NCBI GenBank assembly: GCA_015492495.1
Contig: WGEY01000034.1
Coordinates: forward strand, 1-37,267
Length of the DNA stretch: 37,267 nucleotides
Source of the DNA: Deltaproteobacteria bacterium
GTDB lineage: Bacteria > Desulfobacterota > GWC2-55-46 > DRQE01
Reading direction: 5' to 3'
The first letter of the stretch is position 1. The number at the start of each line of letters is the position of its first letter. Below are positions 1-20,015 of this stretch, in pieces. The notes under the pieces are model-generated. The model did no database searches and had not been told where the DNA came from. It worked only from the letters and a program-made list of their open reading frames with translations. Made by a program: the position numbers and the translations under genes.

Positions 1-27
1 ACTTCAAAAGGCGGTCGTTTTATAGTA

Positions 28-47
28 TCATGCCTGTGGCGGCATGA
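28..47. other. Inverted repeat, 7-bp stem
   Basis: TCATGCC (28-34) and GGCATGA (41-47) form a perfect 7-bp stem with a 6-nt loop. It follows a TATAGT hexamer (21-26) that could be a -10 box whose -35 lies outside the window. There is no T-run, so it is either a weak terminator of an upstream gene or a 5' structure or operator for the gene at 107. I cannot tell which. Confidence 0.3.
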
Positions 48-106
48 CAGATGGTGCATCCCTTCATCAATTAATCAGTATTACAAAAACAGCAGGAAGG
101 TGAGCC

Positions 107-535
107 ATGAAAAAAAGACTCTTTTGTTTGTTGCTCCTGTTGGCGGTCACGGGCCTCTTTGCCTGTGCCGCACCGATGCAGCTGCTTGTAGATGTCGACA
201 GAAACCGCATCGAAGAGGCATGGGAAGTGGCATACAACACGGCCGGCACACTCGGATACGTCAGGGGACAGCATGATATTGAAAAAAAGATAGTTCACTT
301 CTACCGCAGAGAGATCGATACAGTGCCGCTGCCCATGAACCTGCACATAAGGATCGAGATGGACACGAGCGTGGATCCGCCGGTGCTCAGGATGGAGGGA
401 AAGGATGAGGATATTGCCGGGGAGGACGAGCAGGTCCTCGATGACATGAACAAGATAGCCACCATGGTGCACAGGTGCTGCGGCATATACGAGAAGATCG
501 ATGTGCCGGAGAAGGTGAGCGGTCCGGAGGAGTAG
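107..535 (+). CDS. Putative lipoprotein, paralogue of the protein at 2905-3333
   Basis: A 142-residue exported protein of unknown function. The N-terminus has two basic residues after MKK, a hydrophobic stretch and LFAC at 17-20, a plausible lipobox, so Cys20 may be lipidated and the protein anchored in the envelope. The start is supported by AGGAAGG just upstream of the ATG at 107. The rest is mixed alpha/beta and acidic, with an LGY motif, an HFYR motif, an LHI strand and a closing HRCCG. The protein at 2905 has the same order of motifs (LGY, HLYR, LHI, PPLL, QV-DM, CCG), so the two are paralogues separated by three unrelated genes. I recognise no named family. The shared C-terminal Cys-Cys-Gly hints at a disulfide or metal site, which is inference. 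Confidence 0.75.
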   Translation: MKKRLFCLLLLLAVTGLFACAAPMQLLVDVDRNRIEEAWEVAYNTAGTLGYVRGQHDIEKKIVHFYRREIDTVPLPMNLHIRIEMDTSVDPPVLRMEGKDEDIAGEDEQVLDDMNKIATMVHRCCGIYEKIDVPEKVSGPEE

Positions 536-600
536 TTGCCGGTCTGTGCCGAAGGTGCGTCCCAGGCCGCGCACTCATCGGGCTGCTGTGTAGTAAACAT

Positions 601-622
601 CCCTCCGGCAGATGACGGAGGG
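601..622. other. Small GC-rich hairpin
   Basis: CCCTCCG (601-607) pairs with CGGAGGG (616-622) across an 8-nt loop, between the lipoprotein gene and the gene at 668. No T-run follows, so a terminator role is only a guess. Confidence 0.3.
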
Positions 623-667
623 TGTAAAATGCTTTATAAGTACCTGCGGTTATGGTAGATTAAGTGT

Positions 668-1393
668 ATGATCACCGAGGATGTTAACGTAGAATATCTT
701 CCGGAGCTCTGCGTCAGCCGCTGCAGGGGGATCTGCTGTGATCCCTGGTGGGGTATCATACTTTACACCTTGAAAAAGGATAAAGGGCTTTCGCGGCTGA
801 GTGACTTCAAAAAGGTGGTGGCCGACAGCATACGCGAGAGGGTTGAAAGGATCAAGGCACGGTACATAACCAAGGAGCACCCGCCGCGTCACCTGTTCGA
901 TGACCCGGAGATATACAATATCAGCGTCGAGGAGGTCAAGGCAGCTCCGGACGGCACACTGCTCATAAACCTCCGCGCCATGTTCGCGTTCAGGTGCCTT
1001 TTCTTCTCCTCCCGGGACAAAGGGTGCCTGATTCATCCCTCGGTATTGAAGACAGAGATCCGTCCGCCTCATTGCGCTGAGCTCGGCTCGCCCGATGCAC
1101 GTCCGGGGGAGAAGGGGTTCTGCAGGATCGTGTATGCTGCGGTAAGCTCTTACGCCGACGTAAGTGCCATTGACTCCGCCGTTGAGTTGGAGAGAAAGGT
1201 GAGTGAAAGGCACTACAACGAGGGTTTTTCAACCGTTGAAGAGGCAAGCGGTAGCGTTGTCCGGCAGCTTAAGGAGTTCTGCTCAAGGCACCTGCCGCAT
1301 CTTGTGCCGGTGGAAAGGGGTGAAAAGCCGGGACGCAATGAGCCGTGTCCGTGCGGAAGCGGAAGGAAGTACAAAAGATGCCACGGCAGGTAG
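668..1393 (+). CDS. Cysteine-rich metal-binding protein with C-terminal SEC-C motif
   Basis: A 241-residue cytoplasmic protein. The first part contains a cysteine cluster ([10 protein letters not shown] near residues 16-25) and later single cysteines in RCLFF, KGCLIHP and PPHCAEL. This spacing recalls the YkgJ/UPF0153 family of putative zinc- or iron-chelating proteins. The last 20 residues hold a textbook SEC-C motif, [14 protein letters not shown], a small zinc-binding module also found at the end of SecA and used for protein or ribosome contact. The protein therefore looks like two metal-binding modules joined by a helical middle. There is no Shine-Dalgarno before the ATG; a TAGATT hexamer at 656-661 would place transcription start at the ATG itself (weak -35). 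The substrate or partner is unknown. Confidence 0.75.
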
Positions 1394-1524
1394 CGTAGCA
1401 GCGTACAGTCTTGTACCATCGTATTGAACCGCAGGTATAGGTGCCGTCCCACCCTGCAGTACCTTATCAGCACGACACACGGTCAACAACGAGATCTGAC
1501 GGTCACTTGGAAGCCGGTGAAGCC

Positions 1525-1911
1525 ATGTCCTTGAAGCTCGCCACATACCGGTGCGCCTCACCGAGGCGCGAAGACGAGGGCTTGAGGATCGGTGCGGTTA
1601 GGTTCCTTCCTCGCGGGGTGAAAAAGGAGGATTACGCAAGGCTCGGTTACTTCGATGTATGGTTCCCGCTGCTGGCACCGAACAGGGCGGCCGTAAGTGA
1701 GTACAAGAAGAGCCCCGACAAGAAAGAGGCCTGGAAGAGGTTCGCAAGGCAGTACCGCAAGGAGATCGAATCCAACACTGATGCGCGTCAGGCCGTAAAA
1801 CTCCTTGCCGCAATAGCCGAAAAGACCCCGATCGCCATAGGCTGCTACTGTGAGGATGAGGAGTTTTGTCACCGTTCCATATTGAAGAAGCTCATTGAAG
1901 ATGCACGCTGA
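1525..1911 (+). CDS. DUF488 family protein
   Basis: A 128-residue protein of the DUF488 family, whose biochemical role is not established. The C-terminal third shows the family hallmark GCYCEDEEFCHRSIL, with CxC, Asp and Cys-His-Arg. The upstream part has the usual Arg/Asp/Tyr-rich segment, RLGYFDVWFPLLAP, where family members often read YDVWLP.LAPS. The frame is open upstream to a GTG at 1441, but that extension has no family resemblance and no ribosome site, so I chose the ATG at 1525, which gives the usual family length of about 120 residues. The ribosome-binding site there is poor. It stands alone between the SEC-C gene and the cupredoxin gene, and the neighbours give no clue to function. 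Confidence 0.75.
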   Translation: MSLKLATYRCASPRREDEGLRIGAVRFLPRGVKKEDYARLGYFDVWFPLLAPNRAAVSEYKKSPDKKEAWKRFARQYRKEIESNTDARQAVKLLAAIAEKTPIAIGCYCEDEEFCHRSILKKLIEDAR

Positions 1912-2054
1912 GTCGTCGGAGTCGTATCAAGGGCGCCATACGTATAGGCCGACCGCACCGCAGGGCCTGAAAGAATTTATTTAATGATTTCCTTGTTGTT
2001 TTTTGGTACGCTTTAAGGTCGAAACTTAATCTTTCAACCAACGGGAGGGTGAAG

Positions 2055-2729
2055 ATGCGTACAACAAGGCTGCTGTTTGCAATGGCGTTTGCTGGAGTCA
2101 TGTCCCTGAGCGCTCCGGCTTTCTCCCAGGAATCCGATATCATAAAGAACTTCATCGAGGCCTTTGACGCAAAAGACAAGGCGAGGATGTCTTCCATCGT
2201 GGAAGAGAACAAGGACGCGATCCCGGCTGAGATAAGATCCCTCCTCAGACAGGCCGTAGCCCCTGGAACAACGGTGGAAGACAAGGAGGGCGCCTTCTAC
2301 CTTGCCGAGGTCATGGCGAATATATACAAGGATAAGTTCGGGGATGTTGAACCCCTGAAGGAGGTCAAAAGGGCACGCTTCGAATCGTTGCTTGGACCGG
2401 CGGTACGCCTTACATCTCCAGACGGCGTTCATATAGTCGATCTGCCCGAGGCTACCGATACGGTGAAGAATATCTTCAAGCCTGACAATATAATCATAAA
2501 GAAGGGCGAGACGGTGAGATGGGTCAATTACGACAAGGTGGCGCATGTTTTCGCTTCCATGCCTTTCATAGGCAAGGGCGGATTGTTCGCACCGAGCATA
2601 GAACCCGGCGGTTCCTGGGAGTACACATTCGACAGGCCCGGCGAATATTATTACATATGCTTCATACACAAGGGTATGATCGGCAAGGTTACGGTAGAGG
2701 AGGGTGACGGGACAGCGGACGGGAAGTAA
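2055..2729 (+). CDS. Exported cupredoxin (type 1 copper) protein
   Basis: A 224-residue periplasmic protein. MRTTRLLFAMAFAGVMSLSA is a clear Sec signal peptide ending near AFSQ. Residues about 25-115 are helical and unassigned. The C-terminal 90 residues are a plastocyanin/azurin-like fold: KPDNIIIKKGETVRWVN, then the four type 1 copper ligands His164 (VAHVF), Cys202 (YYICF), His205 and Met208 (FIHKGM). A role in periplasmic electron transfer or copper binding follows from the family. GGGAGG at 2043-2048 sits six bases before the ATG at 2055, which decides the start over the in-frame GTG at 2049. An AT-rich stretch upstream (about 1976-2035) probably holds the promoter; TTGGTA at 2003 and CTTAAT at 2025 are the best boxes I find. 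Confidence 0.85.
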   Translation: MRTTRLLFAMAFAGVMSLSAPAFSQESDIIKNFIEAFDAKDKARMSSIVEENKDAIPAEIRSLLRQAVAPGTTVEDKEGAFYLAEVMANIYKDKFGDVEPLKEVKRARFESLLGPAVRLTSPDGVHIVDLPEATDTVKNIFKPDNIIIKKGETVRWVNYDKVAHVFASMPFIGKGGLFAPSIEPGGSWEYTFDRPGEYYYICFIHKGMIGKVTVEEGDGTADGK

Positions 2730-2870
2730 GTGTTTTCGATAGGGATTCGTCTGATACCGCACGGCACTCCGGCGCGTTACGCCCGAGAGGTTTTGCAACT
2801 GCACACCATGGTCCTTCCTCACATCCCGTCCGAATCTTCTGTTGCCACAGGAAGTTAGGGTTAGAAGCCA

Positions 2871-2898
2871 TTGACAGTCGCCTGCGACGGTCTATACT
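2871..2898 (+). promoter_or_regulatory. Strong sigma70-type promoter giving a predicted leaderless mRNA
   Basis: TTGACA (2871-2876), 16-bp spacer, TATACT (2893-2898). Counting six bases beyond the -10 puts +1 at position 2905, the A of the ATG of the next gene. No Shine-Dalgarno is present. This is the clearest leaderless arrangement in the window. Confidence 0.7.
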
Positions 2899-2904
2899 TT
2901 GGTT

Positions 2905-3333
2905 ATGGCGATCATCAAGCAAACCAGGCAGATCCTATTGTGCATTATAGTCCTCTTTCCCGTCCTTGTCGGTTCTTCCCAGGCACAGCCGTCTGATCCA
3001 CATGCCGGTCATGTGCAGATCAGGATAAGGGCCGGCAGTACAAAAGAGGCCCTTCGGACGGCATACATCAAGGGGATGGTTCTTGGATATATCCCCGGAC
3101 GGTACGACATGGAAGAAGGGATACTGCATCTCTACCGCGAAGAGTATTACGGCCCGTTACTTATAAGTCTGCACATAAAAGTTGAACTTACAAGGGACGA
3201 GGTCCCGCCTTTGTTGACCTTTCACGGTGAAGAGCTCACTTATACAGGGGAAGAGTTTCAGGTACGTTCGGACATGGATAGGATCGCTGCCACGGTGAGG
3301 GGATGCTGCGGCGCCGGGGACGGTAAAAGGTAG
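2905..3333 (+). CDS. Exported protein, paralogue of the lipoprotein at 107-535
   Basis: A 142-residue secreted protein of unknown function. Residues 1-30 are a Sec signal peptide with a likely cleavage site around SSQAQ; unlike its paralogue it has no lipobox cysteine, so it should be soluble in the periplasm. Motifs shared in order with the protein at 107 are A-Y, VLGY, HLYRE, LHIKVEL, PPLL, FQV..DM, IAATV and a final CCG. The ATG at 2905 is preferred over the TTG at 2899 because a near-consensus promoter places the mRNA 5' end exactly at 2905, so the TTG would not be transcribed. No known family is recognised. The pair may act in the same envelope process, one anchored and one free, which is inference. 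Confidence 0.72.
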   Translation: MAIIKQTRQILLCIIVLFPVLVGSSQAQPSDPHAGHVQIRIRAGSTKEALRTAYIKGMVLGYIPGRYDMEEGILHLYREEYYGPLLISLHIKVELTRDEVPPLLTFHGEELTYTGEEFQVRSDMDRIAATVRGCCGAGDGKR

Positions 3334-3374
3334 GAAGGCTTTTTCGATTTACATAGCGGGGAGGGGGTGGTTTC

Positions 3375-3611
3375 ATGGCTGATCCGGGGAAGTACAGATG
3401 TCCTCATTGCGGTGACGGACACGGCGAGATCTTCTGCGATATATGCAGCGGTTTCATCTTCGAGTGCGTGGAGTGTCACTGTGAGATCTTTCACAGCCTC
3501 GTGTGGAGCACCGAGGACCGTTACCACGGCTGTCCGCGTTCAGGAGGGACCATGACCATGGGCGGCGAAGCCTCGGTCGACCCGAGTGGTCCGAAGAAGA
3601 TCCTTTTGTAG
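3375..3611 (+). CDS. Small zinc-ribbon protein
   Basis: A 78-residue protein with three CxxC knuckles in the first 36 residues (CPHC, CDIC, CVEC), followed by further Cys/His (CHCEIFH) and a late single Cys (HGCP). It probably binds one or two zinc ions in a rubredoxin-like or zinc-ribbon fold. The C-terminal 25 residues are Gly/Ser/Pro-rich and probably flexible. GGGGAGGGGG lies a few bases before the ATG and gives a strong ribosome site. It closes the plus-strand group of small exported or metal-binding proteins. No function can be assigned. Confidence 0.65.
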   Translation: MADPGKYRCPHCGDGHGEIFCDICSGFIFECVECHCEIFHSLVWSTEDRYHGCPRSGGTMTMGGEASVDPSGPKKILL

Positions 3612-3696
3612 GATCAGGGTTCGGCTCCAGGTGATGTGTTTTCATTGTTACAGCATAGATCGGCTTCATGTGTCTGCCGACCACGTTTATAGATAG

Positions 3697-3736
3697 GTGA
3701 CACGGGTCGTCACAGGCAGGTGCCTCTTACCTGCCT
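3697..3736 (-). terminator. Tandem hairpins at the 3' end of the DHH-CBS-CCA gene
   Basis: AGGCAGGT (3714-3721) pairs with ACCTGCCT (3729-3736) as an 8-bp stem that contains the stop codon of the minus-strand gene. GTGAC (3697-3701) pairs with GTCAC (3709-3713) just beyond it. No U-run follows, so termination is plausible but unproven. Confidence 0.4.
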
Positions 3737-6336
3737 TCATTCGTCGCGAGCCCTCTCACAAACTCTTCTTCGTCCTCCTTCGAGAGGACCTCACCGTCGA
3801 GGCGCTTTTTCAGAAGGGTGTTGAGTACCTCTCCGATGACCGGGCCCTCTTCAAAGCCCATGGCCTTGAGGTCGGCCCCTTTGAGCGCCGTCCTTGCGGA
3901 CCTCAGTTCGGTTACATAGGTTGATACGGCCTTTTTCACCCCTTCGTCGACTGACCTCGCCATGAGATACAGAACCAGCTCAACAGGCAGCGGGTTCAGG
4001 ACCTCGTACAGTTCGCTCCCCTTTCTTACCCTGCCGGAGCCTATGAGCCCGAGGGCCTTCACTCCGTCCCTTCTTCTACGGATCACCTCTATCCGCCTCC
4101 TGCCGGTTATCATGAGCCTCCTGCTGAGCCCATCGAGCTCCTCCTGCGTCAGCTTGTCGGTGAGGGCCAGAAACAATACTATCCAGTCCTCGGCCTTTTC
4201 CTCCGTGTAGAGAAGGCGGTACCAAGCCAGCACCTCCCGTGTCCTTTCGAAGAGGGCGGCGCTTTCTTCGTTCCATTCAAGGTTCTCGTGTATGAGGGAG
4301 AGAAGTCCCAGCTCGTACAGCCTTGCTATGGCAGCCGCAGCACTCTTCTCCAGGAGGATGTTCTTAAGCTCATCACGTATCCTCGCACCGGAGGCCTGGT
4401 GCAGCATCTTGAGCTTTACCGAGTTCTTCATGAGGTTGAGCGTATGTCTGGCGATCCTGAAGCCGAACCGTTCGGAAAACCTTACGGCCCTCAAGGCCCT
4501 TACAGGGTCTTCGACGAAGCTCAGGTTGTGAAGCACCCGGATGGTCTTTTCCTCTATGTCCTTCTGCGCACCGAAGAAGTCTATGAGCTCTCCGAACCTT
4601 TCCGGGTTGAGCGCCACCGCAAGCGTGTTGATGGTGAAGTCACGCCTGTAGAGGTCGAGCTTGAGCGAAGAGAGCTCCACAGTGGGCAGCGCCCCCGGCC
4701 TCTCGTAGTACTCAAGCCTTGCCGTTGCAACGTCGAGCTTGAATCCGTCGGGGAAGACGATGACGGCTGTCTTGAACCTGTCGTGGCTCTTCACCCTGAG
4801 TCCGCGGCCCGCTGCGAATTCGTTGGCGAACCTTATGCCGTCCCCTTCCACGACTATGTCTATATCAAGGTTCTCTCGCCTCAGGATAAGATCCCTTACA
4901 AACCCGCCGACCGCGTAAGCGCTGTAGCCGAGTGATTCGGCCGTGGCGCCTATGTCACGCAGCAGCCTGTAGGCCCACTCGGGAAGCCTTTCCTTCATGA
5001 GGGAACCGACCAGCCTTTTTTTACGCATCTCCCGGGAAGGCCTTTCAGTGAGTTCTTCCTGAAGGAGCTTAAGCATGTCGGTTCTCGTTATCACCCCTAC
5101 TACACGACCTTTGTCCACAACGGGCAGAAGCCTCTGACCGTAGACGCCCACCTTCGTTCGTATCTCCTCGACCGGGGTTCTTGCCTCGACCCAGTCCACC
5201 TCGGTCGTCATGTAATCCCCGGCCTCTTCCTTCCCGAGTCTGTGGTCCAGTGCCCTGTCGACCACCTGCCTGGTTATAACCCCCGCGAGCCTTCCGTCCC
5301 TTACCACGGGCATAGCGTTTATGTTGTAGCGGCGTAGCAGCCGTGCGGCATCGGACAGGGTTGTCTCCGGGGATATGGTTATGGCCGGTGATGACATTAC
5401 CTCAGATGCGGACCTCCTGGGCGCTATCCTTTCCTTGAGGCTCTTAAGCACCTTTTCCCTTGCCTGTATAAGTGTTACACCCTTTAGTGTGGCTGATGCC
5501 GCCTGAGGATGACCGCCTCCGCCGACGCCTTCGGCCACACATCCTGCATCGACCTCAGGTACGGCGCTTCTTATGACCACGTGGACCCTGTCGGCCGTCT
5601 CAACGAGCAGGAAGAGGCAGTCCATGTGTTCCATGTCCATCAGTCTGTGTGCGAGTGTGGCTATATCGTTTTTATACTCCTCAATGGAAAGCATGGCAAC
5701 GACCACGCTGATGCCTCCGATGGTGTAGGTGACCTCGGACTCGATGAGCTTGTTCAGGGCAGCCACTTCCTGGGGGGTGAGTTCTTTTTTGAGGAGCCTC
5801 GTGACGGCCTTGAGGTCCGCACCGCACGAGAGGAGAAATGAAGCCGCCTCGTAGTCTTCCACTGAGGTGGAGGGAAAGCTCAGCGAGCCGGTGTCCTCGT
5901 AGATGCCCGCCATGAGTATAGTGGCCTCTTCCGGTGTTATCTTAAAGGACTTTTCCTTCAGTAGGAGTGTGAGTATTGTCGTCGTTGAGCCATAGGGTCT
6001 TACCACCTCGACCGAGCCCTTTATGTCATCCTCACGAGCCGGGTGGTGGTCGTATATGTGTACGTCAAGCCCCTTGCGGCCTATTATGTCGGCGAAACGC
6101 CCGATCCTTGCGGCCTGCCTTATGTCGACTAGTATGAGCCTCGTTACCCTCTCAAGGTCTATGTCTTTGGCACGCTCTATGGTGTAGGGAAGCCTGAGCG
6201 TCCTCATGGCCGACCTGAGACCCTTTTCAAGTGAGCCGGGGAAGACAAGGGTCGCTTCCGGATAGAGCTTCTTTGCGGCTATCATGGACGCAAGGGTATC
6301 GAAGTCCGCATTGGTATGCGTGGTGATAACCTCCAT
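3727..6336 (-). CDS. DHH phosphoesterase-CBS-tRNA nucleotidyltransferase fusion
   Basis: A 869-residue three-part enzyme. Residues 1-300 are a DHH/DHHA1 phosphoesterase, with NADFD at 9-13, DHH at 96-98 and GGGGHPQAA from 272. Residues about 310-426 are two CBS domains that usually bind adenine nucleotides. The C-terminal half is a class II nucleotidyltransferase of the CCA-adding/poly(A) polymerase family, with GGFVRD at 477-482, metal Asp pair DID at 491-493, RRDFTINTLA near 564 and a helical RNA-binding tail. The likely job is adding or repairing tRNA 3' CCA or A-tailing, coupled to degradation of small RNA or nucleotides. The architecture is known in Geobacter-like bacteria and Aquifex relatives. 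The start at 6336 matches the conserved MEVITTH beginning; a TTG at 6369 is possible but lies upstream of the predicted mRNA start. Confidence 0.88.
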   Translation of the reverse strand: MEVITTHTNADFDTLASMIAAKKLYPEATLVFPGSLEKGLRSAMRTLRLPYTIERAKDIDLERVTRLILVDIRQAARIGRFADIIGRKGLDVHIYDHHPAREDDIKGSVEVVRPYGSTTTILTLLLKEKSFKITPEEATILMAGIYEDTGSLSFPSTSVEDYEAASFLLSCGADLKAVTRLLKKELTPQEVAALNKLIESEVTYTIGGISVVVAMLSIEEYKNDIATLAHRLMDMEHMDCLFLLVETADRVHVVIRSAVPEVDAGCVAEGVGGGGHPQAASATLKGVTLIQAREKVLKSLKERIAPRRSASEVMSSPAITISPETTLSDAARLLRRYNINAMPVVRDGRLAGVITRQVVDRALDHRLGKEEAGDYMTTEVDWVEARTPVEEIRTKVGVYGQRLLPVVDKGRVVGVITRTDMLKLLQEELTERPSREMRKKRLVGSLMKERLPEWAYRLLRDIGATAESLGYSAYAVGGFVRDLILRRENLDIDIVVEGDGIRFANEFAAGRGLRVKSHDRFKTAVIVFPDGFKLDVATARLEYYERPGALPTVELSSLKLDLYRRDFTINTLAVALNPERFGELIDFFGAQKDIEEKTIRVLHNLSFVEDPVRALRAVRFSERFGFRIARHTLNLMKNSVKLKMLHQASGARIRDELKNILLEKSAAAAIARLYELGLLSLIHENLEWNEESAALFERTREVLAWYRLLYTEEKAEDWIVLFLALTDKLTQEELDGLSRRLMITGRRRIEVIRRRRDGVKALGLIGSGRVRKGSELYEVLNPLPVELVLYLMARSVDEGVKKAVSTYVTELRSARTALKGADLKAMGFEEGPVIGEVLNTLLKKRLDGEVLSKEDEEEFVRGLATNEGR

Positions 6337-6344
6337 ACATACGG

Positions 6345-6374
6345 ATATTAGCACAGTTTGCCGTATCAAATCAA
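6345..6374 (-). promoter_or_regulatory. Candidate promoter of the DHH-CBS-CCA gene
   Basis: On the minus strand TTGATT (6374-6369), 18-bp spacer, TAATAT (6350-6345). +1 would fall near 6338, two bases before the ATG at 6336, so the mRNA would be almost leaderless. No Shine-Dalgarno precedes that ATG. Confidence 0.45.
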
Positions 6375-6385
6375 AGTTTACCCCT

Positions 6386-6456
6386 CCGGGGCCAAGGCGG
6401 TCGTGGATCTTTAGTAGGCCGCAAGGCGCATACGGATAGCGGCCCCGGTTTTTTTT
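6386..6456 (+). terminator. Terminator-like hairpin with T8 run
   Basis: CCGGGGCC (6386-6393) is perfectly complementary to GGCCCCGG (6441-6448), which runs directly into eight T residues (6449-6456). An alternative inner stem, GGCCGC (6417-6422) with GCGGCC (6439-6444), shares the same right arm. On the plus strand this is an intrinsic terminator with two competing stems. No plus-strand gene lies immediately upstream, so it may end a small RNA or act as an attenuator for the gene at 6599. Confidence 0.45.
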
Positions 6457-6598
6457 CGCCTTTTACGGATTTTTCTACACGCTTGATTTATCCGGACGAT
6501 TGATATACCCTTTGAAAAGGTACGGATAGAAGACATGTTTTTTCATTTAAGCTTACCGCAGCCCGCTTTAAGGGGCCTCGATACCGTTATCATTGACA

Positions 6599-9334
6599 AT
6601 GACGGCTTACCACAAAGAGAGGCTTGCCCTCTTCGACCTGCTCGCGAGGGACTGGAAAGGGGTTGTAAACGGCAGGTTCTGGACGCTCGATCCCAGGTCC
6701 TTGAGGTTCAAACACGGAGAGACCCTTACCGAGTTGAGGGTACCCTATCATCTCGGTGCCGAGGATGAGGCGGTGATAGAGAAGGCCGTGGCGGCCCTCG
6801 CCCTCCTCGTCAAGAGGCGCTTTGAAAGGACGGGCGAGGATGAAGCGGTGGAGGTCCCGTCCCGTCTCGATGTCGCCATATCCCAGCCGTTAAGGGAAAA
6901 GACATGTAGAACCGACCTTCTGCTCCATGGCTCCGTCGAGAAGAGGACCGCGACCGACACCCTTCTCACAACACCTTTCATGGACGGCGCCATCCTTACA
7001 AACTGGCTCGGCCCTGATGGGCACGGAAGAGGATTCGTACGCTGGATCTCTGGGCTCATGGAGAAGGCCATGAAGGACGAAGCCGGCAATCCCAAGGGGG
7101 AGAGGACCTCCTACCTGGCCCTGCTATCTGTAATCAACGCCGTAAAGAAGAAAAAGGAGATGCTGAAGGAGTTGAGGATATCCGGCCTCTCGTATGACAA
7201 GCTGGACGCAGCGGTGGGCTTCACCCTCTACGATGCATGCAGGGCGGCGCTCTGGGGGCTCTTCGACAGGTTGAAGACGGAGGCGGTGCCGTACTACAGC
7301 AGGACCTCCGAGGCGGTCGTCAAGACGGCTCTCGGACCGGTGATGTTCCTCGCAATCCCTTCAAACATCATATCAACCTCCCTGAATCCGTACGGTATCA
7401 ACAGGGAGCTCTTCGATTCCATAGAGCCGCTTTTGCCGTCGATGGACGAAGCGTCCTGGGATTCAAGGACAATCATCTCGGAGATGGTGGATAATGTAAA
7501 GAAGGATGCGGGGCTGGCCGAAGAGATCAGGCTGCAAATCAATATCTTGCGTTTCAGGCGACTCGTCCTGGCCTACCTCATGGACTTCGACTCCAAGGGG
7601 ATCGAGGTACACGGCACGTTGCGCGAGATCTACCCCGATGACCGTCGGATCAGGGGTCTTCTTACGGACCACAGGGCTGCAGAGAGGCTCAGGGACCGGC
7701 TGGATGAGATCAGGCAGAGGTTTCCACGGGATACGAAGAGGCTCGGGGCGATAGGGCCTCTGGAGGACTTTCTTGCGGGGCTGCACAGGTCAAGGGGCGG
7801 ATGGTTCAGGAGGCAGTCAAGGGAGGACTCTACTGAGGCCGTCACCGAGTGTATGGAGAGGGCTCTCTCCTTCTGGTTCGATGGATTCGTGGAGAGGTTC
7901 GTAGAGCCGATGAGGCTTGTTTTAGTGGACAGGGGGCTGGAGTATGACGACGCTGTGCTTGCAGAGGAGTACAACAAGGGACGGTTGTATCGTTTTTCCG
8001 CGGACAGCAGGCCGGTCCTGACTGTGCTGGCGGTGGAACACGAGGCCCAGCTCTTCATAGATATGAAGGATTTTACCAGGAGGACCCTCAAGGTCAAGGA
8101 GATAGCCATGGCCGAGTTCATGAAGGAAAACTTCTACAGGCCGATACTGGATGCAGCGGCCCGCCATGGCATGGGGGAGGGGCTCGTGGAGACGGAAGGA
8201 GGGATAAGGCTCAACAGCCTTCCCGGCGATGCCGCCATATTCTCCGGCAGTGTATCAAGGCTTATCTCGCTCGCCCGTGACATACGGTGCATAATACGGC
8301 TTTACCGGCAGAAGCTCGAAAAGAGGCTGCCGCCGGTAGAGGACGAGCTGCTGCTCGGAGACGTACACGACAGGTTCATGGGTCAGAAACAGAGGATCAG
8401 GGAGAAGAGGACCGAGCTTGAAAGGGCCCTTCACAGGGGCGACGAGTCGGCCGGCGCCAGACTTTCTGCGCTGACAAGGGAAGAGCGCCGGCTTGAAAAC
8501 ATTTACCATTACGAGGTGGAAGCGGCCGTCTCCAGGGAGATGGAGGCAGGCCTCTTCATCTCCTACGGTATGAAGGCCGAGACCATGGTGCTCAGGGGAG
8601 GAAAAGGAGGCGGCTGGCCGATCATGGTGGCCATAGGCGAGAAGATAAACGAGGCCGCAAGGGGCACGGACAGGGACCGCAGGGTCAGGGCCAGGCTCGA
8701 GGTGATGCTCGAAAAAGAGCGGCTCGGAACCGGCAGGGCGGATCTTGGCTATCCCTTCGACGTGTATATCGACAGCACCTACAGCATACGTATACCGCCG
8801 GAACTCGAAGAGACCATAGAGGGGCTTATGGAGCGCAGAAGGGACGTGGATATCAGGGCTGCGGCAACAAGGCTCGCCAGGGAGTACTACAACGACCTTG
8901 TGCGTCTTTCAAGGGGCAAGGCCGTGGAGGATCTGGCCCTGCTCGAGTCGACCACGGCCATATACAACAGGGGACAGGCCCTGAGCAGGGAGGCGTTACG
9001 CGCCTACATGGAGGAGACCAGAGGGACGAAGTTCTTCTTCTCGAAGACCGTCTCGGCGGATGAGCTCGACGAACGCATCCTGGAGCAGTTCTACTTCCCC
9101 TCTGAGGTCATGGAGCTTTGGTTCAGCTACGAGCTGCGGGGCAGGACAGAGGTGGTCGAAGCGTTCCGCAGGTGCGGAGAGGTGGTCTTCAAGGGATTCG
9201 AGTCCAGCGGTCCCACGGTCGTGTACGAGATACTGGATACAGAGGGTGACTTCTTCAAGGCGCTCGAGGCGCATCACCTGAAAAGGTGGATCGAGGAGGC
9301 AAAGGAGGAGAAGGCGGATGAGTTCGTGCCATGA
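6599..9334 (+). CDS. Large protein with a divergent class III nucleotide-cyclase-like domain
   Basis: A 911-residue cytoplasmic protein with no signal peptide or membrane segment. Residues 1-480 are helical and unassigned. Residues about 475-710 resemble a class III adenylyl/guanylyl cyclase domain. FIDMKDFT (486-493) matches the first metal-Asp motif, LPGDAAIF the second (Asp544), and IGEKINEAAR carries Asn684 and Arg688 with the four-residue spacing of the catalytic Asn-Arg pair. The usual purine-specifying Lys and Asp positions read Ser and Val, and about 130 residues, partly coiled coil, separate the second and third motifs. It may therefore be a non-canonical cyclase or a nucleotide sensor. 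The last 200 residues are unassigned. The start could be the TTG at 6593 or the ATG at 6599; neither has a Shine-Dalgarno. A TATCAT hexamer (6588-6593) would place +1 at the ATG. Confidence 0.6.
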   Translation: MTAYHKERLALFDLLARDWKGVVNGRFWTLDPRSLRFKHGETLTELRVPYHLGAEDEAVIEKAVAALALLVKRRFERTGEDEAVEVPSRLDVAISQPLREKTCRTDLLLHGSVEKRTATDTLLTTPFMDGAILTNWLGPDGHGRGFVRWISGLMEKAMKDEAGNPKGERTSYLALLSVINAVKKKKEMLKELRISGLSYDKLDAAVGFTLYDACRAALWGLFDRLKTEAVPYYSRTSEAVVKTALGPVMFLAIPSNIISTSLNPYGINRELFDSIEPLLPSMDEASWDSRTIISEMVDNVKKDAGLAEEIRLQINILRFRRLVLAYLMDFDSKGIEVHGTLREIYPDDRRIRGLLTDHRAAERLRDRLDEIRQRFPRDTKRLGAIGPLEDFLAGLHRSRGGWFRRQSREDSTEAVTECMERALSFWFDGFVERFVEPMRLVLVDRGLEYDDAVLAEEYNKGRLYRFSADSRPVLTVLAVEHEAQLFIDMKDFTRRTLKVKEIAMAEFMKENFYRPILDAAARHGMGEGLVETEGGIRLNSLPGDAAIFSGSVSRLISLARDIRCIIRLYRQKLEKRLPPVEDELLLGDVHDRFMGQKQRIREKRTELERALHRGDESAGARLSALTREERRLENIYHYEVEAAVSREMEAGLFISYGMKAETMVLRGGKGGGWPIMVAIGEKINEAARGTDRDRRVRARLEVMLEKERLGTGRADLGYPFDVYIDSTYSIRIPPELEETIEGLMERRRDVDIRAAATRLAREYYNDLVRLSRGKAVEDLALLESTTAIYNRGQALSREALRAYMEETRGTKFFFSKTVSADELDERILEQFYFPSEVMELWFSYELRGRTEVVEAFRRCGEVVFKGFESSGPTVVYEILDTEGDFFKALEAHHLKRWIEEAKEEKADEFVP

Positions 9335-9370
9335 GTCGGTTGGAACCGCCGAGCCCCTCGGTACAGGCAG

Positions 9371-9400
9371 GCATTTCCAGAAGCCCGCTTCTGGGAATGC
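9371..9400. terminator. 13-bp hairpin between convergent genes
   Basis: GCATTTCCAGAAG (9371-9383) pairs with CTTCTGGGAATGC (9388-9400) with one G-T wobble and a 4-nt loop. It lies between the end of the cyclase-like gene (+) and the end of larE (-), the place for a bidirectional terminator, although neither side has a long T-run. Confidence 0.5.
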
Positions 9401-9442
9401 GCTCGAAATATAGTCGGACAACCAACCCCTTCTTACACCTCC

Positions 9443-10345
9443 TCAGGCGTGCCCTTTTCGTCCTTTTGCCGCCTGCGCCCCGCCTCCCCGCAGCACCTCG
9501 TTCATGGATCCGGTTCTATAGCCCTCGAGGTCCAGAGTGACATAGGGAAAGCCTATCTTCTTGAACTCCTCCACGATCGAGCCCCTGAGCCCGGCATCCA
9601 GAAGACGCCCTATGGACGACTGCTCCACCTCGATCCTGGCCACCTCGCCGTGGTACCGCACCCTTACCTGCTCAAGGCCGAGTCCTTTCAGGTATTCCTC
9701 GCACCTCTTCACCTTTTCTAGCCTCTCCTCGGTTATGCGGGTGCCGTACGGAAAGCGGGACGAGAGGCATGCGAGGTTTGGTTTCTTCCACGTGGAGAGC
9801 GCCATCTCCCTGCTCAGAAGCCTTATCTCCTTCTTGGTGAGGCCCGCCTCCACGAGAGGGCTCCTTACGCCGAGCTCCTCCGCAGCCGCCTTGCCCGGCC
9901 GGTGGTCTGCCAGATCATCGGCGTTGGTGCCGTCCACTACGTATTCAAGCCCCAACTCATCGGCCTTCCTGCGGCATATCTCGAATAGCTCGCTCTTGCA
10001 GTAGTAGCACCTGTTTTCCGGGTTATCGGCGAAGTTGGGGATCAGAAGCTCGTTTGAATCCACTATGATGTGTTCTGCGCCGAACTCCTTGGCCAGCCTT
10101 TTCGCCTCCTCGAGTTCGCTCTCGAGGTAGGTGGGTGAGGTGGCGGTGAGCGCTACGGCGCGGTCTTTGAGGGTCTGGTTTGCCACCTTGAGCAGGAAGG
10201 TCGAGTCCACCCCTCCTGAGAATGCAACAAGTACAGAGCCCATATTCCTAAGGATCTCCCTGAGAAGGTCGAGCTTCTCGGCTACACTCTTTGCCTCGTC
10301 TCTCGCCGGTGCATCGGCCGTGTTACGGCCTTTTTCGCTCAGCAT
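9443..10345 (-). CDS. larE: LarE, ATP-dependent sulfur transferase for the nickel-pincer cofactor
   Basis: A 300-residue PP-loop ATPase. In the Lar pathway LarE adenylates the dicarboxylated pyridinium mononucleotide made by LarB and transfers sulfur to it. SGGVDS at 43-48 is the PP-loop; DGTNADDL, RPGKAAAEELGVRSPL and KPNLACLSSRFPYG are typical of LarE. Cysteines at 113 and 116 (RCYYC) and 193 (LACLSS) form a triad, suggesting the iron-sulfur type of LarE that can recycle sulfur rather than sacrifice a single Cys; that subtype call is inference. AGGAG precedes the ATG at 10345, and the start overlaps the end of the upstream PP-loop gene by seven bases. LarA, LarB and LarC are not in the window. 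Confidence 0.85.
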   Translation of the reverse strand: MLSEKGRNTADAPARDEAKSVAEKLDLLREILRNMGSVLVAFSGGVDSTFLLKVANQTLKDRAVALTATSPTYLESELEEAKRLAKEFGAEHIIVDSNELLIPNFADNPENRCYYCKSELFEICRRKADELGLEYVVDGTNADDLADHRPGKAAAEELGVRSPLVEAGLTKKEIRLLSREMALSTWKKPNLACLSSRFPYGTRITEERLEKVKRCEEYLKGLGLEQVRVRYHGEVARIEVEQSSIGRLLDAGLRGSIVEEFKKIGFPYVTLDLEGYRTGSMNEVLRGGGAQAAKGRKGHA

Positions 10346-11364
10346 ACCCTTATCTCCTCTATGGTTCCGTCATCAGGAGGGTTTGCAACCTCCAGCGAGG
10401 TCGTTTTTCCCCCACGGGTGACGAGGACCATTCCCCTTTTCTCCGTGTTCCTGGAAGAGTACCTCAGTATGAGCCTTGCGGCCATCTCGACTGTGCCGTT
10501 TGTCGCTCCTCCACAGACAAGCGCCACCGGGCCGGGGAAGCCTTCGGGCTCGAGGACGGTATCGCCCTCCTGGATCAGGTTCCTGAGCCTTACATTCTCG
10601 GATTCGTTCCTGCTCACGATGAGCTTCGTTCCGTGGTATCGGAAGTGTCTTCCGAGCTTGAGGGCCTGAAGATCCTTCATGGTGACGCTCTCCTTGTGGT
10701 CGAGTAGATCCCTTACCTTCTTGGAAAAGATCTTGTCCGTGAGTAGGCATCCCCCGGATGGGCACGGATAGTCCCCTATGTTGAGATCCTCTGCAAGCTC
10801 CATCTGCGGCCTTCTCGTCCTGCCGAGCATAGAAAGGAGCCTTTCCCTGTCCACCATACCGGTCCTCTCTGGTATGGTCGGTTCAAGGTGCTTTGCGCAG
10901 AGCGGCCTCAGTATGCGTCCCTCGAGGCCGCTCTCCCTCTCTATTATGCGGAAGGTGTCCCTTCTCTGGCTCATCGGTCTCTGGCCCAGGACCTCGCCGG
11001 TTATTGCGAATTCGGCCCCTATCTCTTCCATGTACTCCTTTGCCCTCTTGAACATGTAGATGCGGCAGTCCACGCAGGGGTTTATACCCTTTCCATAGCC
11101 GTGTCGGGGGTTTCTTACGATATCGATGTAATCGAGCCCCTTAAGCAGGACCTTTATGGGTATGCCGAACGCCTCGGCGACCCTCCTTGCCTCGCTCCTG
11201 CACCCGCCTTGCTCTCCCTTCTTGTGCTTTCCCCCGGAATCACACGTGCAGAAGGCAGAGGTGAAGTTCAGCGCATGGACCTCGATGCCCTGATCGAGTA
11301 TGAGCTTCACCGCAAGCGTTGAATCCAGCCCGCCCGAAAGAAGTGCTACAGCCCTCCTTGCCAT
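10339..11364 (-). CDS. MnmA/ThiI-like PP-loop ATPase, probable RNA thiolation enzyme
   Basis: A 341-residue cytoplasmic enzyme. SGGLDS at 10-15 is the PP-loop that adenylates a substrate. A cysteine pair NPCVDC (97-100), the GEVLGQRPMSQ segment and PCPSGGC (201-206) are features of a family annotated as tRNA 2-thiouridylate (MnmA-like) or ThiI-like proteins, often linked to DUF814/NFACT-R. FCTC at 38-41 and Cys55 add further thiols, so an iron-sulfur cluster or persulfide relay is possible. Residues 210-341 form a separate C-terminal domain of strands and turns. The exact substrate is not determined by the sequence. GGAGG lies ten bases before the ATG, and a promoter with a perfect TATAAT drives this gene and larE as an operon. 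Confidence 0.75.
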   Translation of the reverse strand: MARRAVALLSGGLDSTLAVKLILDQGIEVHALNFTSAFCTCDSGGKHKKGEQGGCRSEARRVAEAFGIPIKVLLKGLDYIDIVRNPRHGYGKGINPCVDCRIYMFKRAKEYMEEIGAEFAITGEVLGQRPMSQRRDTFRIIERESGLEGRILRPLCAKHLEPTIPERTGMVDRERLLSMLGRTRRPQMELAEDLNIGDYPCPSGGCLLTDKIFSKKVRDLLDHKESVTMKDLQALKLGRHFRYHGTKLIVSRNESENVRLRNLIQEGDTVLEPEGFPGPVALVCGGATNGTVEMAARLILRYSSRNTEKRGMVLVTRGGKTTSLEVANPPDDGTIEEIRVC

Positions 11365-11669
11365 AAGAACGAAACCTCCACATAATCCTTGTAATTTGCT
11401 GAAATAATATTATACTTGGAAGGGTCCGCAAATGCAAAACCGAATTTCCACAGGCCTCGCAGAGGATGTACACCTGATGGTGTGCTTGCCGCATGAAGGT
11501 TTAATCTTCAAAGGTAAGGTACCTTAAGGCCGGCGGCGCGGTTGGTGCCAGCTGCATATTTTCATAGTATTTGAGGATTCTTTCCGTAGCAGGGCGGCTT
11601 CGGTAACGGGGTTAGTAAGGATGGTTTCGGGGCCTTTCATGGGAGGTTGCTTTACCCTGTATCTTTGTT
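11365..11669. other. Divergent intergenic region with palindromes
   Basis: This 305-base stretch separates the minus-strand PP-loop operon from the plus-strand protease. Besides the minus promoter it holds TAAGGTACCTTA (11515-11526), a perfect 12-bp palindrome suited to a dimeric regulator, TGAAG/CTTCA arms (11494-11510) immediately before it, and a small ACACC/GGTGT hairpin (11470-11483). I see no gene, tRNA or riboswitch in it. Confidence 0.45.
11409..11437 (-). promoter_or_regulatory. Promoter of the PP-loop ATPase-larE operon
   Basis: On the minus strand TTGCAT (11437-11432), 17-bp spacer, perfect TATAAT (11414-11409). Transcription would begin near 11402 and give a leader of about 38 bases containing the GGAGG at 11379-11375. 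Confidence 0.6.
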
Positions 11670-12548
11670 ATGAGGGAGTATTACGCGTTCAGAGAAGGGA
11701 CCCGTCGAGTTCGGCCCAGGCTGTTTCTGCCGGTCCTGCTCTTTATCGTGACGGTCTTCACCACCATGACCGCCGGGGCCTTTTATGAAGGTGTAAATCC
11801 CCTGCACGATCCGGCGGGGCTCATAAAGGGCATACCGTTTTCGGCCTCACTGCTCTTCATTCTCGGCACCCACGAGCTCGGCCATTTTTTTGCATCCAAG
11901 AAACACAGGATTCACGCAACACTCCCATACTTCATACCCGGTCCGCCTATACCTCCTATGATAGGCACCTTCGGGGCGATCATAAAGATGAAGGCCCCGA
12001 TTACCACAAAGGGCGCACTCGTAGACATTGGGGCTGCCGGCCCGCTTACCGGTTTCGTCGCGGCCGTGCTGATAACCTCATGGGGGCTGAGCATCTCTAC
12101 GCTTATACCCACTCCTCCGCCGGGGTCGGTCGAGCTGGGCTCTCCGCTCGTCTTCAAGGCCCTGTCTGCTCTCATGGTGGGGCCCATGCCGGAGGGTAAA
12201 GAGCTCATGCTCCATCCGGTGGCATTCGCAGGCTGGATAGGCATGTTCGTCACCTCGTTGAACCTGCTTCCCATAGGACAGCTCGACGGCGGACACATAG
12301 TTTACGCGCTCCTGGGCCCGTACCACAGGACCGTATCGATACTCATGGTCTTCGGGCTCCTGAGCATGGGTATCCTTACCTGGCTGGGCTGGTTCGTGTG
12401 GGCGGTCTTGGTGTCCATCATAGGAATATGGCATCCACCGGTCGCCGACCAGCACATAGGACTCGATGTAAAGAGGAAGATAATAGGTATCTCAACCATA
12501 ATCGTATTTATATTGACATTCACCCCCACACCGTTTTATATTTCCTAG
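11670..12548 (+). CDS. Site-2 protease family (M50) membrane metalloprotease
   Basis: A 292-residue polytopic membrane protein. Hydrophobic segments lie near residues 18-38, 57-72, 122-145, 183-205 and in the C-terminal third. HELGH at 68-72 is the zinc motif with catalytic Glu, and LDGGH at 205-209 supplies the third ligand, both within membrane segments. The loop LPYFIPGPPIPPMIGTFGA is typical of the plant EGY/bacterial S2P subgroup. Such enzymes cut membrane-embedded substrates. There is no PDZ domain. No Shine-Dalgarno is near the ATG; GGGAGG at 11641 is too far, while a TATCTT hexamer (11660-11665) ends four bases before it. The substrate is unknown. Confidence 0.85.
   Translation: MREYYAFREGTRRVRPRLFLPVLLFIVTVFTTMTAGAFYEGVNPLHDPAGLIKGIPFSASLLFILGTHELGHFFASKKHRIHATLPYFIPGPPIPPMIGTFGAIIKMKAPITTKGALVDIGAAGPLTGFVAAVLITSWGLSISTLIPTPPPGSVELGSPLVFKALSALMVGPMPEGKELMLHPVAFAGWIGMFVTSLNLLPIGQLDGGHIVYALLGPYHRTVSILMVFGLLSMGILTWLGWFVWAVLVSIIGIWHPPVADQHIGLDVKRKIIGISTIIVFILTFTPTPFYIS
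12513..12542 (+). promoter_or_regulatory. Promoter inside the 3' end of the protease gene
   Basis: TTGACA (12513-12518), 18-bp spacer, TATATT (12537-12542). +1 is expected at 12549-12551; the next ATG is at 12551. The following gene could thus be transcribed on its own as a leaderless message. Confidence 0.6.
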
Positions 12549-12550
12549 CT

Positions 12551-12784
12551 ATGAAGAAGTTTACGGAAGAAGAACTCAGGGCCTTCGACGGGAGCGATCC
12601 GAACAAACCGGTGTACTTTGCGTACAAAGGCAAGGTCTACGACGCCACGGACAATCCGCTCTTTACGGACGGGATGCACTTCGAGCATCCCACAGGATGC
12701 GACCTCACCGACTATATAGAAGAGGCCCCACACGGAGACGAGGTCCTTGAGGAACTGCCCGTTGTGGGTGAATACATAGGGTAA
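12551..12784 (+). CDS. Cytochrome b5-like heme/steroid-binding domain protein
   Basis: A 77-residue single-domain protein of the prokaryotic cytochrome b5-like group. FTEEELRAFDGSDPNKPVYF and YKGKVYDATDNPLF match the opening strands. FEHPTGCDLTDYI and EAPHGDEVLEELPVVGEYIG match the closing half, with the histidines of EHPTG and APHG as candidate heme ligands. There is no signal peptide, so it should be cytoplasmic; similar proteins bind heme or another hydrophobic ligand. It begins two bases after the stop of the M50 protease gene but has its own promoter and no Shine-Dalgarno. Confidence 0.8.
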   Translation: MKKFTEEELRAFDGSDPNKPVYFAYKGKVYDATDNPLFTDGMHFEHPTGCDLTDYIEEAPHGDEVLEELPVVGEYIG

Positions 12785-12855
12785 AGGGTGAGGCACCTCC
12801 TGCCGTACTTGGCACAGTTTCCACACCTGCGAGACCCTGACACGGCCCGTCTGCC

Positions 12856-13614
12856 ATGAAGATTCTGATCCTCGGATGCGGCACATCCACCGGTGTGCCG
12901 GTGATAGGATGCCGGTGCGGCGTGTGTACATCCGGTGAGCCGGCGAACAAGCGCACGAGGTCTTCGGCGCTCATCCAGGCCGGGGAGAGGAACATCCTCA
13001 TAGACACGTCGACCGATCTGCGCATCCAGGCGCTCCGAAACAACGTAGAGAGGGTCGACGCCGTACTCTTTACCCATCCCCACGCAGACCACATCCACGG
13101 CATAGACGACCTCCGGATATTCAACCTCAGGCAGAGGGGCCCGATACCGTGCTACGGGAACGAATACACGGTAAAGAGGATAAAGGGGTTCTTCGAGTAT
13201 ATATTCGTCGATGACGAAGGTAACGGCTGGAAGCCCAGGCTCGATGTCACGGTGGTGGACTCTCCCTTCACCCTCTTCGGTTGCGATATAAAACCCGTCG
13301 AGATATGCCACGGAAAGGCCAGGATCCTGGGCTACCGCATAGACGACGTGGCCTACCTTACGGACTGTAGCGGCGTCCCGCCCGAGTCCATGGAGCTTTT
13401 GAGGGGAGTTAAGCTCCTCATCATCGACGCGCTCCGCAAGAGGCCGCATCCGAGCCACTTCAGCATAGACCAGGCCATAGAGGTCTCACGTAAGGTCTCG
13501 GCGGAAAGGACCGTCCTCACGCACCTGAGCCACAACGTAGACTACGTGGCCGACGGTAAGGGGCTTCCGGCCGGCGTTGAGCTTGCCTATGACGGCATGG
13601 AGATAGAGGTCTGA
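12856..13614 (+). CDS. Metallo-beta-lactamase-fold phosphodiesterase-like hydrolase
   Basis: A 252-residue cytoplasmic hydrolase. GCGTSTGVPVIGCRCGVC at the N-terminus with three cysteines and the metal motif HPHADH at 74-79, followed by HGIDDLR, place it in the MBL-fold group that includes PhnP and related cyclic-phosphate phosphodiesterases. ILIDTSTDLRIQAL, PIPCYGNEYT, YLTDCSG and VLTHLSHNVDY are the other family blocks. It should bind two metal ions and cleave a phosphodiester, but the substrate is not shown by sequence. No phn genes are nearby, so a phosphonate role is unlikely. The start at 12856 begins the conserved MKILILG; no good Shine-Dalgarno is visible. Confidence 0.85.
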   Translation: MKILILGCGTSTGVPVIGCRCGVCTSGEPANKRTRSSALIQAGERNILIDTSTDLRIQALRNNVERVDAVLFTHPHADHIHGIDDLRIFNLRQRGPIPCYGNEYTVKRIKGFFEYIFVDDEGNGWKPRLDVTVVDSPFTLFGCDIKPVEICHGKARILGYRIDDVAYLTDCSGVPPESMELLRGVKLLIIDALRKRPHPSHFSIDQAIEVSRKVSAERTVLTHLSHNVDYVADGKGLPAGVELAYDGMEIEV

Positions 13615-13658
13615 GGGGGGGCGGCTGCTCATACTGTCGCTTAGGAAAGGATCGTAGC

Positions 13659-14063
13659 ATGGAAGGTGCTGGCAGGTTGTTCTTCATGGCGAGTGTCTTC
13701 TACCTTGCGGTCGGAACCTTCATGGGGCTTGCGATGGCATTTTTGAGGGGCAAGTGGACCCTGAGGCTCATGCCGGCCCATGTGCACATAAACCTTCTGG
13801 GCTGGGTATCGATGCTCATCTTCGGCTTCGCCTACACATTCCTTCCTGCGCTCGCCGGCAGGGAACTCTACAGTACACGGCTGCCTTACGTGCACTTTGT
13901 TGTCGCCAATATAGGTCTTCCGGGGATGGCGGCGGTCTGGGTGGGCAGCCGGTTTCCTGGCTCGCGCATCCCGCCGCGGCTTGTCTGGCCCTTCGGCGGG
14001 CTTGTGGCGGCCTCGGTGTGGATCTTCATATTCAACATGGCGATGACGATGTTCAGGGGATAG
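13659..14063 (+). CDS. Small heme-copper-oxidase subunit I-like membrane protein
   Basis: A 134-residue protein with four predicted membrane segments (about 5-28, 44-66, 77-98 and 107-131). MPAHVHINLLGWVSMLIFGF resembles the HxHxNLLGW segment of cbb3-type oxidase and NorB subunit I, and YVHFVVANIGLPG the next one. Only a fraction of subunit I is present, so it cannot be a full oxidase; short proteins of this kind are often annotated as cbb3 subunit I-like. The histidines could bind heme. GGAAAGGA lies eight bases before the ATG. It ends 29 bases before the convergent carbamate kinase gene, and no other oxidase genes are close. Confidence 0.65.
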   Translation: MEGAGRLFFMASVFYLAVGTFMGLAMAFLRGKWTLRLMPAHVHINLLGWVSMLIFGFAYTFLPALAGRELYSTRLPYVHFVVANIGLPGMAAVWVGSRFPGSRIPPRLVWPFGGLVAASVWIFIFNMAMTMFRG

Positions 14064-14082
14064 GATGGGGATGGTGTTTGTG

Positions 14083-14097
14083 CGTAGCTTGCCTACG
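14083..14097. other. Small hairpin at convergent gene ends
   Basis: CGTAG (14083-14087) and CTACG (14093-14097) pair around a 5-nt loop, overlapping the stop codon of the carbamate kinase gene. It could aid termination between the two convergent genes; the stem is short. Confidence 0.3.
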
Positions 14098-15046
14098 GGT
14101 ATATCCTCGTGCCGGCCCTCCCGGATGCGGCCTCTTCGACGAGTTCGGGTGTCGTTATGACGACCTCGCTGCCGCCTCCTTGCAGGAACTCTATGGCGGC
14201 CTCTATCTTGGGTGCCATGCTTCCTGTAAGAAAGTGTCCTTCGTCGAGGTATCTTTTCGCCTCGGCTACGGTCATCCGTTCGATGGGTCGCTGCGAGGGT
14301 TTGCCGAAGTCGAGGTAGACACATTCTATCTGTGTCAGGTTTATGAACCGTTCGGCCCCTATCTCGAGGGCGAGTGTGGATGTGGCGAGGTCCTTGTCTA
14401 TGACTGCGTCCACGCCGCTCAGGGTTCCGTCGCAGCCTTCAATTACCGGTATGCCGCCCCCTCCGGCGGCTATGACCATGACACCCATATCCGAGTTCAT
14501 CCTTATCACCCCGGCCTCCACAACACGAACGGGCCGCGGCGACGGAACAAGCCTCCTCCAGCCCCTGCCGCTGTCCTCGGCCATCTCCCAGCCCTTTTCG
14601 GCGGAGAGTGCCGCGGCCTGCTCCCTTGTATAGTACGGGCCAACGGGTTTTGTGGGATTCGTGAAAGCAGGATCATTTCTTTCCACCACGACCTGGGTCA
14701 CGACCGTAACCACGTCCTTCACCTTGCCGGTCTTTACGAGCTCGTTGTAAAGGGTCTGCTGGATCATGAACCCGATGCCGCCTTCGCTGTCGGCATCGCA
14801 TATGTAGAGCGGCATCGGAGGGACCTCGTCACTCGCCGCCTCGTTCCTTATAAGTATGTTGCCGACGACCGGGCCGTTGCCGTGGGTTATGACTATCCTC
14901 TCACCGCCTTCGGCGAGGCGGGCCATGTACCTGCAGGCGGTTTGTGTGTTTCTGAACTGCTCCTCTATGGTCCCGGCATCGTTCCGCCTTATTATCACGT
15001 TTCCGCCGAGCGAGACGATGGTCCTTTTTCTGTCATCTCGGTCCAT
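14093..15046 (-). CDS. arcC: Carbamate kinase
   Basis: A protein of 317 residues from the ATG at 15046. Carbamate kinase interconverts carbamoyl phosphate plus ADP with ATP, carbamate and ammonia, normally as the last ATP-yielding step of arginine or purine-ring breakdown. Family motifs are SLGGNVI near the N-terminus, THGNGPVVGN, NPTKPVGPYY, VIAAGGGGIPVI, GVDAVIDKDLAT and LTGSMAPKIEAA. Length is normal. In the second motif Val stands where Gln is usual (HGNGPQVG). In-frame ATGs at 15052 and 15061 are alternative starts, none with a clear Shine-Dalgarno. No arginine deiminase or ornithine carbamoyltransferase lies in the window, so its supply of carbamoyl phosphate is unknown. A hairpin separates it from trxB. 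Confidence 0.88.
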   Translation of the reverse strand: MDRDDRKRTIVSLGGNVIIRRNDAGTIEEQFRNTQTACRYMARLAEGGERIVITHGNGPVVGNILIRNEAASDEVPPMPLYICDADSEGGIGFMIQQTLYNELVKTGKVKDVVTVVTQVVVERNDPAFTNPTKPVGPYYTREQAAALSAEKGWEMAEDSGRGWRRLVPSPRPVRVVEAGVIRMNSDMGVMVIAAGGGGIPVIEGCDGTLSGVDAVIDKDLATSTLALEIGAERFINLTQIECVYLDFGKPSQRPIERMTVAEAKRYLDEGHFLTGSMAPKIEAAIEFLQGGGSEVVITTPELVEEAASGRAGTRIYP

Positions 15047-15085
15047 GGTCATGGAATGCATGGCGAGCGCCTGTGCGCCGCAACA

Positions 15086-15108
15086 CCGGGACCGGCAGGC
15101 GGTCCCGG
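15086..15108 (-). terminator. 9-bp GC-rich hairpin after trxB
   Basis: CCGGGACCG (15086-15094) and CGGTCCCGG (15100-15108) form a perfect 9-bp stem with a 5-nt loop, 21 bases beyond the trxB stop. Only a short U-poor tail follows on the minus strand, so it may be a weak or factor-assisted terminator, or protect the 3' end. Confidence 0.5.
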
Positions 15109-15128
15109 CAGTTTACCGAAGTGGCTGA

Positions 15129-16037: not shown

Positions 16038-16060
16038 AAGACCTCCTTTAGAATTTATTC

Positions 16061-16086
16061 GAACCCTCCAAGCGGTCTGAGGGTTC
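16061..16086 (-). other. 8-bp inverted repeat between trkH and trxB
   Basis: GAACCCTC (16061-16068) and GAGGGTTC (16079-16086) are perfect complements around a 10-nt loop, just upstream of the trxB ribosome site. It may end the trkA-trkH transcript or act as an operator for trxB; there is no U-run. Confidence 0.4.
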
Positions 16087-16184
16087 CATCCTGTACCGGG
16101 ACGGCGGACAGGTGTTCAGATGGATTTTGAAGTCCTGCGGCTTTCGGGGCCTGCCTGCATCCGCTACGATGCATGTTCAGGCGG

Positions 16185-17630: not shown

Positions 17631-17684
17631 GGGGATCCTCCGTGTACCATGGTCACGTTCTCTTTTTGCATGGAACCTTCGGGC

Positions 17685-19912: not shown

Positions 19913-20015
19913 GGCGGGGTGTCAGGACCTTGCCCTTCGTGTAGGGGTGTTGTCGGCTCTTCTCATTACGGGTTCCTTTCGTGGGTGTACTAAAAGCCCT
20001 GGCATCAAAGTGTAG

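Follow-up and report, generated by a model that had tools for sequence, protein, structure and literature searches.

Leaderless transcripts, whose 5′ end is the start codon and which lack a Shine–Dalgarno (SD) sequence, have been described in mycobacteria (PMC3898074, PMC4633059). In Deinococcus radiodurans, −10 motifs are reported to lie commonly ~6–7 bp before open reading frames (ORFs) (PMC12340547), and of the 953 bacterial genomes treated by Zheng et al. 2011, 207 were predicted to have leaderless genes (PMC3160421). A review describes the binding of 70S particles to an AUG that lies at the 5′ end or close to it, and names AUG as the best start in E. coli; GUG starts are reported to be usable on leaderless transcripts of Mycobacterium smegmatis (PMC9031893). 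Among the titles listed by a literature search, none is a survey of leaderless genes in metagenome-assembled or uncultivated bacterial lineages, which does not prove that none exists. We analysed a stretch of 37,267 nucleotides (hereafter the window; contig WGEY01000034.1 of assembly GCA_015492495.1, Deltaproteobacteria bacterium, Desulfobacterota) in which a near-consensus promoter immediately precedes a gene starting at position 2905. The mRNA of this gene is probably leaderless, or has a leader of a few nucleotides, and would be made from a housekeeping (sigma-70-type) promoter. Since the predictions in 207 of 953 genomes and the −10 boxes of D. radiodurans were already known, the 2905 gene adds to a known arrangement.

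A preliminary description of this DNA had placed TTGACA, a 16-nt spacer and TATACT six bases before the ATG at 2905, with no SD sequence, and direct reading gives exactly this. The elements are the following:

2871–2876, + strand: −35 hexamer TTGACA, 6 of 6 consensus bases (read from the sequence and found in promoter scans)
2877–2892, + strand: promoter spacer of 16 nt (read from the sequence)
2877–2888, + strand: inverted repeat GTCGC-CT-GCGAC with two perfectly matching 5-nt arms, which takes up most of the spacer between −35 and −10
2893–2898, + strand: −10 hexamer TATACT, 5 of 6 consensus bases (read from the sequence and found in a promoter scan)
2899–2904, + strand: discriminator TTGGTT, containing an in-frame TTG at 2899
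2905–2907, + strand: ATG start codon, whose A is the predicted transcription start (from the −10 spacing and the class-wide positional preference)
2905–3333, + strand: gene whose 142-aa product seems, by eye, to begin with a Sec-type signal peptide (residues ~1–28)

With 11 of 12 consensus bases, the promoter is joint best among the 14 promoter-like sites at window positions 1–20000, where shuffles are expected to give 9.2 sites with at least 9 of 12 bases, so that weak sites mean little. Another 11/12 promoter, TTGACA-18-TATATT, is found at 12513–12542 and overlaps the end of the ORF at 11670–12548.

The usual transcription start lies 7 nt past the −10 hexamer. This puts the predicted +1 on the A of ATG 2905, with a T at −1; the in-frame TTG at 2899 is outside any RNA begun 6–9 nt past the −10. 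Genes led by an SD sequence carry its core a few nucleotides before the start, and the cores AGGA, GGAG and GAGG are absent from the 20 nt preceding ATG 2905. The locus has the layout of a leaderless gene, in which a sigma-70-type −10 is so near the start that +1 falls at or beside the ATG. Housekeeping (sigma-70-type) RNA polymerase would recognise TTGACA-16-TATACT and begin transcription at A2905, or within a few nucleotides of it, giving an AUG-first mRNA. Without an SD sequence, translation would follow the leaderless route, with a 70S ribosome and initiator tRNA assembling on the 5′-terminal AUG, and its product would be a small exported protein. A leader of a few nucleotides at 2905 is indistinguishable from none. 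With the leaderless genes described in Deinococcus–Thermus (PMC12340547), the locus shares a sigma-70-type −10 about 6–7 bp before the start and the lack of an SD sequence. Common to it and the predictions reported by Zheng et al. 2011 (PMC3160421) are a TA-like signal ~12 bp before the start (counted from the first T), a low frequency, as in many groups, and the TAtaaT pattern at medium GC. It resembles the mycobacterial transcripts (PMC3898074, PMC4633059) in the missing SD sequence and in a 5′ end, here predicted, that is the start codon.

The same spacing is preferred across the class. The pattern TTGAC-N17..19-TATAMT-N0..12-ATG has 647 matches over 63 class genomes, with at least one in every genome, against 385 when ATG is replaced by GTA and 198 when it is replaced by GTG. 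GTG starts therefore show no excess after these promoters in the 63 genomes, unlike the GUG use reported for M. smegmatis (PMC9031893). Among the matches listed, which come from 16 genomes, 144 distinct ATG strings are spread over distances 0 to 12 as 15, 6, 6, 11, 8, 3, 21, 14, 19, 18, 17, 4 and 2, i.e. with a peak at 6–10 and a fall at 11–12. For ten genomes (G000–G009) we fetched the listed places, own-genome loci included, and removed 7 coding-stretch strings. ATG then lies at 6–10 nt in 56 of 79 strings, compared with 25 of 72 for GTA (Fisher p ~1e-5), and at the level of the lineage the arrangement is thus used above chance. An ORF (at least 60 codons, or at least 45 where the end of the stretch cuts the frame) follows 42 of the 56 strings at 6–10, 5/19 at 0–5 and 0/4 at 11–12. 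This gives 42/56 versus 5/23 elsewhere (p ~3e-5); both p-values are optimistic, because the string counts contain orthologues and relatedness is ignored. One further coding-stretch string (L162) was kept among the other distances, which biases the comparison against leaderless starts. In eight class members the count at 6–10 is 46 for ATG and 17 for GTA. We rejected the idea that the arrangement is specific to the class: 190 other genomes of the phylum have 559 ATG at 6–10 against 293 GTA.

The excess of ATG at distance 0 was rejected as a promoter signal, since it comes mostly from a single coding stretch that is conserved among relatives. At L043:18556–18588 (contig C21 of genome G000), a full-consensus promoter look-alike, conserved across relatives, lies within a long coding frame with 769 codons open upstream of it. 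We take this frame to be MutS; the look-alike is a trap for promoter scans.

The arrangement is retained in conserved families. The 42 ORFs fall into 22 groups, and seven families keep the promoter and ATG in place in at least two genomes. The DUF2007 family (PF09413; the G000 member matches with E 7e-10) does so in 10 of 10 genomes, at a distance of 8–10 nt, and six further families do so in 2–5 genomes each; the pair L092/L093 was not counted as a family, since both come from a single genome. With the class-wide ATG peak at 6–10 nt and these seven families, the leaderless mRNA from a housekeeping-type promoter put forward by the preliminary description is the best reading of the locus. Its expectation that promoter-to-ATG spacing be conserved in orthologues holds for the clade, and the result for the 2905 gene itself is weakly positive. 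Of 48 genomes of the order, 5 (source genome counted) have homologues of the 2905 protein, and a profile search finds them in 6 of 63 genomes of the class. The closest, in G046 (44%; the only close orthologue), lacks an SD sequence and has TTTATA-17-TAAATT at distance 6, a weak promoter with 8 of 12 bases that is equalled in 2.4% of 500 shuffles; its start codon is uncertain, the N-terminus having no basic residues. One tentative idea, which we hold to be possible but rather doubtful, is that the clade keeps leaderless initiation on purpose for a small conserved set (DUF2007, exported small proteins and others). This set would use strong housekeeping promoters and AUG only, in genomes where ordinary leaders otherwise prevail, and the start mode may serve as a regulatory tag that distinguishes its genes when ribosome or initiation-factor pools change.

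Within the source genome, the near-consensus promoter class is real: TTGACA-N15..19-TATAMT has 33 matches genome-wide, versus 2 for the reversed pattern. Leaderless initiation is at most a minor mode there. SD cores peak 6–9 nt before first ATGs (59/317 at best versus ~18 farther upstream, in a 437-kb sample). Of 639 frames whose first ATG could be used (788 kb, 35% of the genome), 4 have a −10-like box at distance 6, the mean being 1.4 per position over distances 0–44. We therefore rejected a genome-wide leaderless habit. Two of the four frames have a good −35 as well, namely the 2905 gene and one on contig C22 (L081:13208; TTGACT-17-TATACT-6-ATG), whose start is likewise signal-peptide-like. 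A third strict distance-6 case, on contig C99 (L160), encodes 300 aa. This differs from the TANNNT-motif genes described in D. radiodurans (PMC12340547), in that each genome has a few strict cases, −35 and −10 are near consensus and SD-like cores still peak before ATGs. The 2905 gene is best read as a member of a small conserved group of genes with no leader or almost none, within a lineage where most genes start in other ways.

Besides the optimistic p-values and the small number of distance-6 boxes, several results weigh against this reading. Among the 33 strict promoters, the ATG lies exactly six bases past the −10 solely at 2905 (and at ten on contig C90), and one exact match in 33 is weak evidence of leaderlessness by itself. 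The class-wide peak at 6–10 is broad, so many members may carry leaders of 1–4 nt. A pyrimidine is expected at −1 if the A of the ATG is the transcription start; it is present in 36/42 ORF-opening strings versus 98/190 SD-led genes, and in 16/22 groups once orthologues are grouped, which falls short of significance (p 0.07). The arrangement is missing from five other homologues of the 2905 gene, its paralogue included: their promoter-like matches have 4–5 of 12 bases, and 4 of the 5 have an SD core. Two more homologues were left out of this test, L008 (start unclear) and L066 (stop inside).

The alternative that survives best is that the main mRNA comes from upstream, by read-through from the cupredoxin-domain gene at 2049–2729 or from an unrecognised promoter, and that ATG 2905 or TTG 2899 is started without an SD sequence on leadered RNA. 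We consider this unlikely. The upstream gene runs in the same direction and stops 175 nt short of 2905, the scan lists no terminator-like site between the two, and the predicted folding of RNA from the gap shows nothing unusual. On the other hand, the best promoter-like match at distances 11–60 before the ATG has 7 of 12 bases, compared with 11/12 at distance 6, and a leadered start would have to do without an SD sequence, which is absent at ATG 2905 and not visible by eye for TTG 2899. It is still less probable that the promoter is real and the ATG at +1 coincidental, with the RNA or translation start slightly different or elsewhere. A single exact match in 33 strict promoters is not unlikely alone, and the distance-6 peak is weak inside this genome, but the clade-wide ATG peak and the conserved families argue against coincidence. 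The N-terminus of the protein, MAIIKQTRQILLCIIVLFPVLVGSSQAQ, does so as well: it is by eye a Sec signal peptide, in which KQTR followed by a hydrophobic stretch fits a start at ATG 2905. Homologues back the ORF, and the signal-peptide-like N-terminus fits ATG 2905 as the putative true start. An inactive chance look-alike is highly improbable: the reversed control also gives matches, and a match to the consensus is no proof of activity, but this 11/12 match is intergenic, correctly oriented and placed ahead of a conserved gene.

A leaderless 2905 mRNA would provide a clean, testable case with a full −35/−10 promoter, and the families suggest that a small conserved leaderless set is retained in a lineage whose genes mostly start otherwise. 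Start-site annotation is aided, because the promoter-to-ATG spacing marks the true ATG. Natural pairs of leaderless and SD-led homologues, e.g. the 2905 gene and its paralogue at 107, allow the two modes to be compared. This paralogue (window 107–535) is SD-led, has a lipoprotein-like signal (LFAC) and is ~33–37% identical to the 2905 protein. At L130 (G006:C147) and L132 (G007:C13), a lipoprotein homologue of the 2905 gene directly follows a DUF2007-like gene that is near-leaderless, and the two likely form an operon.

The 142-aa protein matches no Pfam or NCBIfam family. A structure model built from eight sequences has high confidence in the mature domain (mean pLDDT of 83 for the whole model). 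It resembles the N-terminal domain of BamC (Foldseek E 5.5e-05, TM 0.51, identity 6%) and KA1 domains (VIA-align, Z near 10 and up to 10.8, at very low identity). These likenesses of a predicted model would reflect a common fold, and say nothing of function. The inverted repeat in the promoter spacer has no second copy in the genome, the reversed control occurring 2 times per strand; it might be a candidate operator for a putative regulator.

The neighbouring genes in the window are the following:

2049–2729, + strand: protein that appears to be secreted and ends in a plastocyanin-like copper-binding domain (PF00127, C-terminal)
3375–3611, + strand, downstream of the 2905 gene: 78-aa Cys-rich ORF preceded by a G-rich SD-like stretch, with a weak, below cut-off match to Zn_ribbon_SprT; possibly the second gene of the 2905 transcript
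3727–6369, − strand: single 880-aa frame in which DHH, two CBS and poly(A)-polymerase domains are fused
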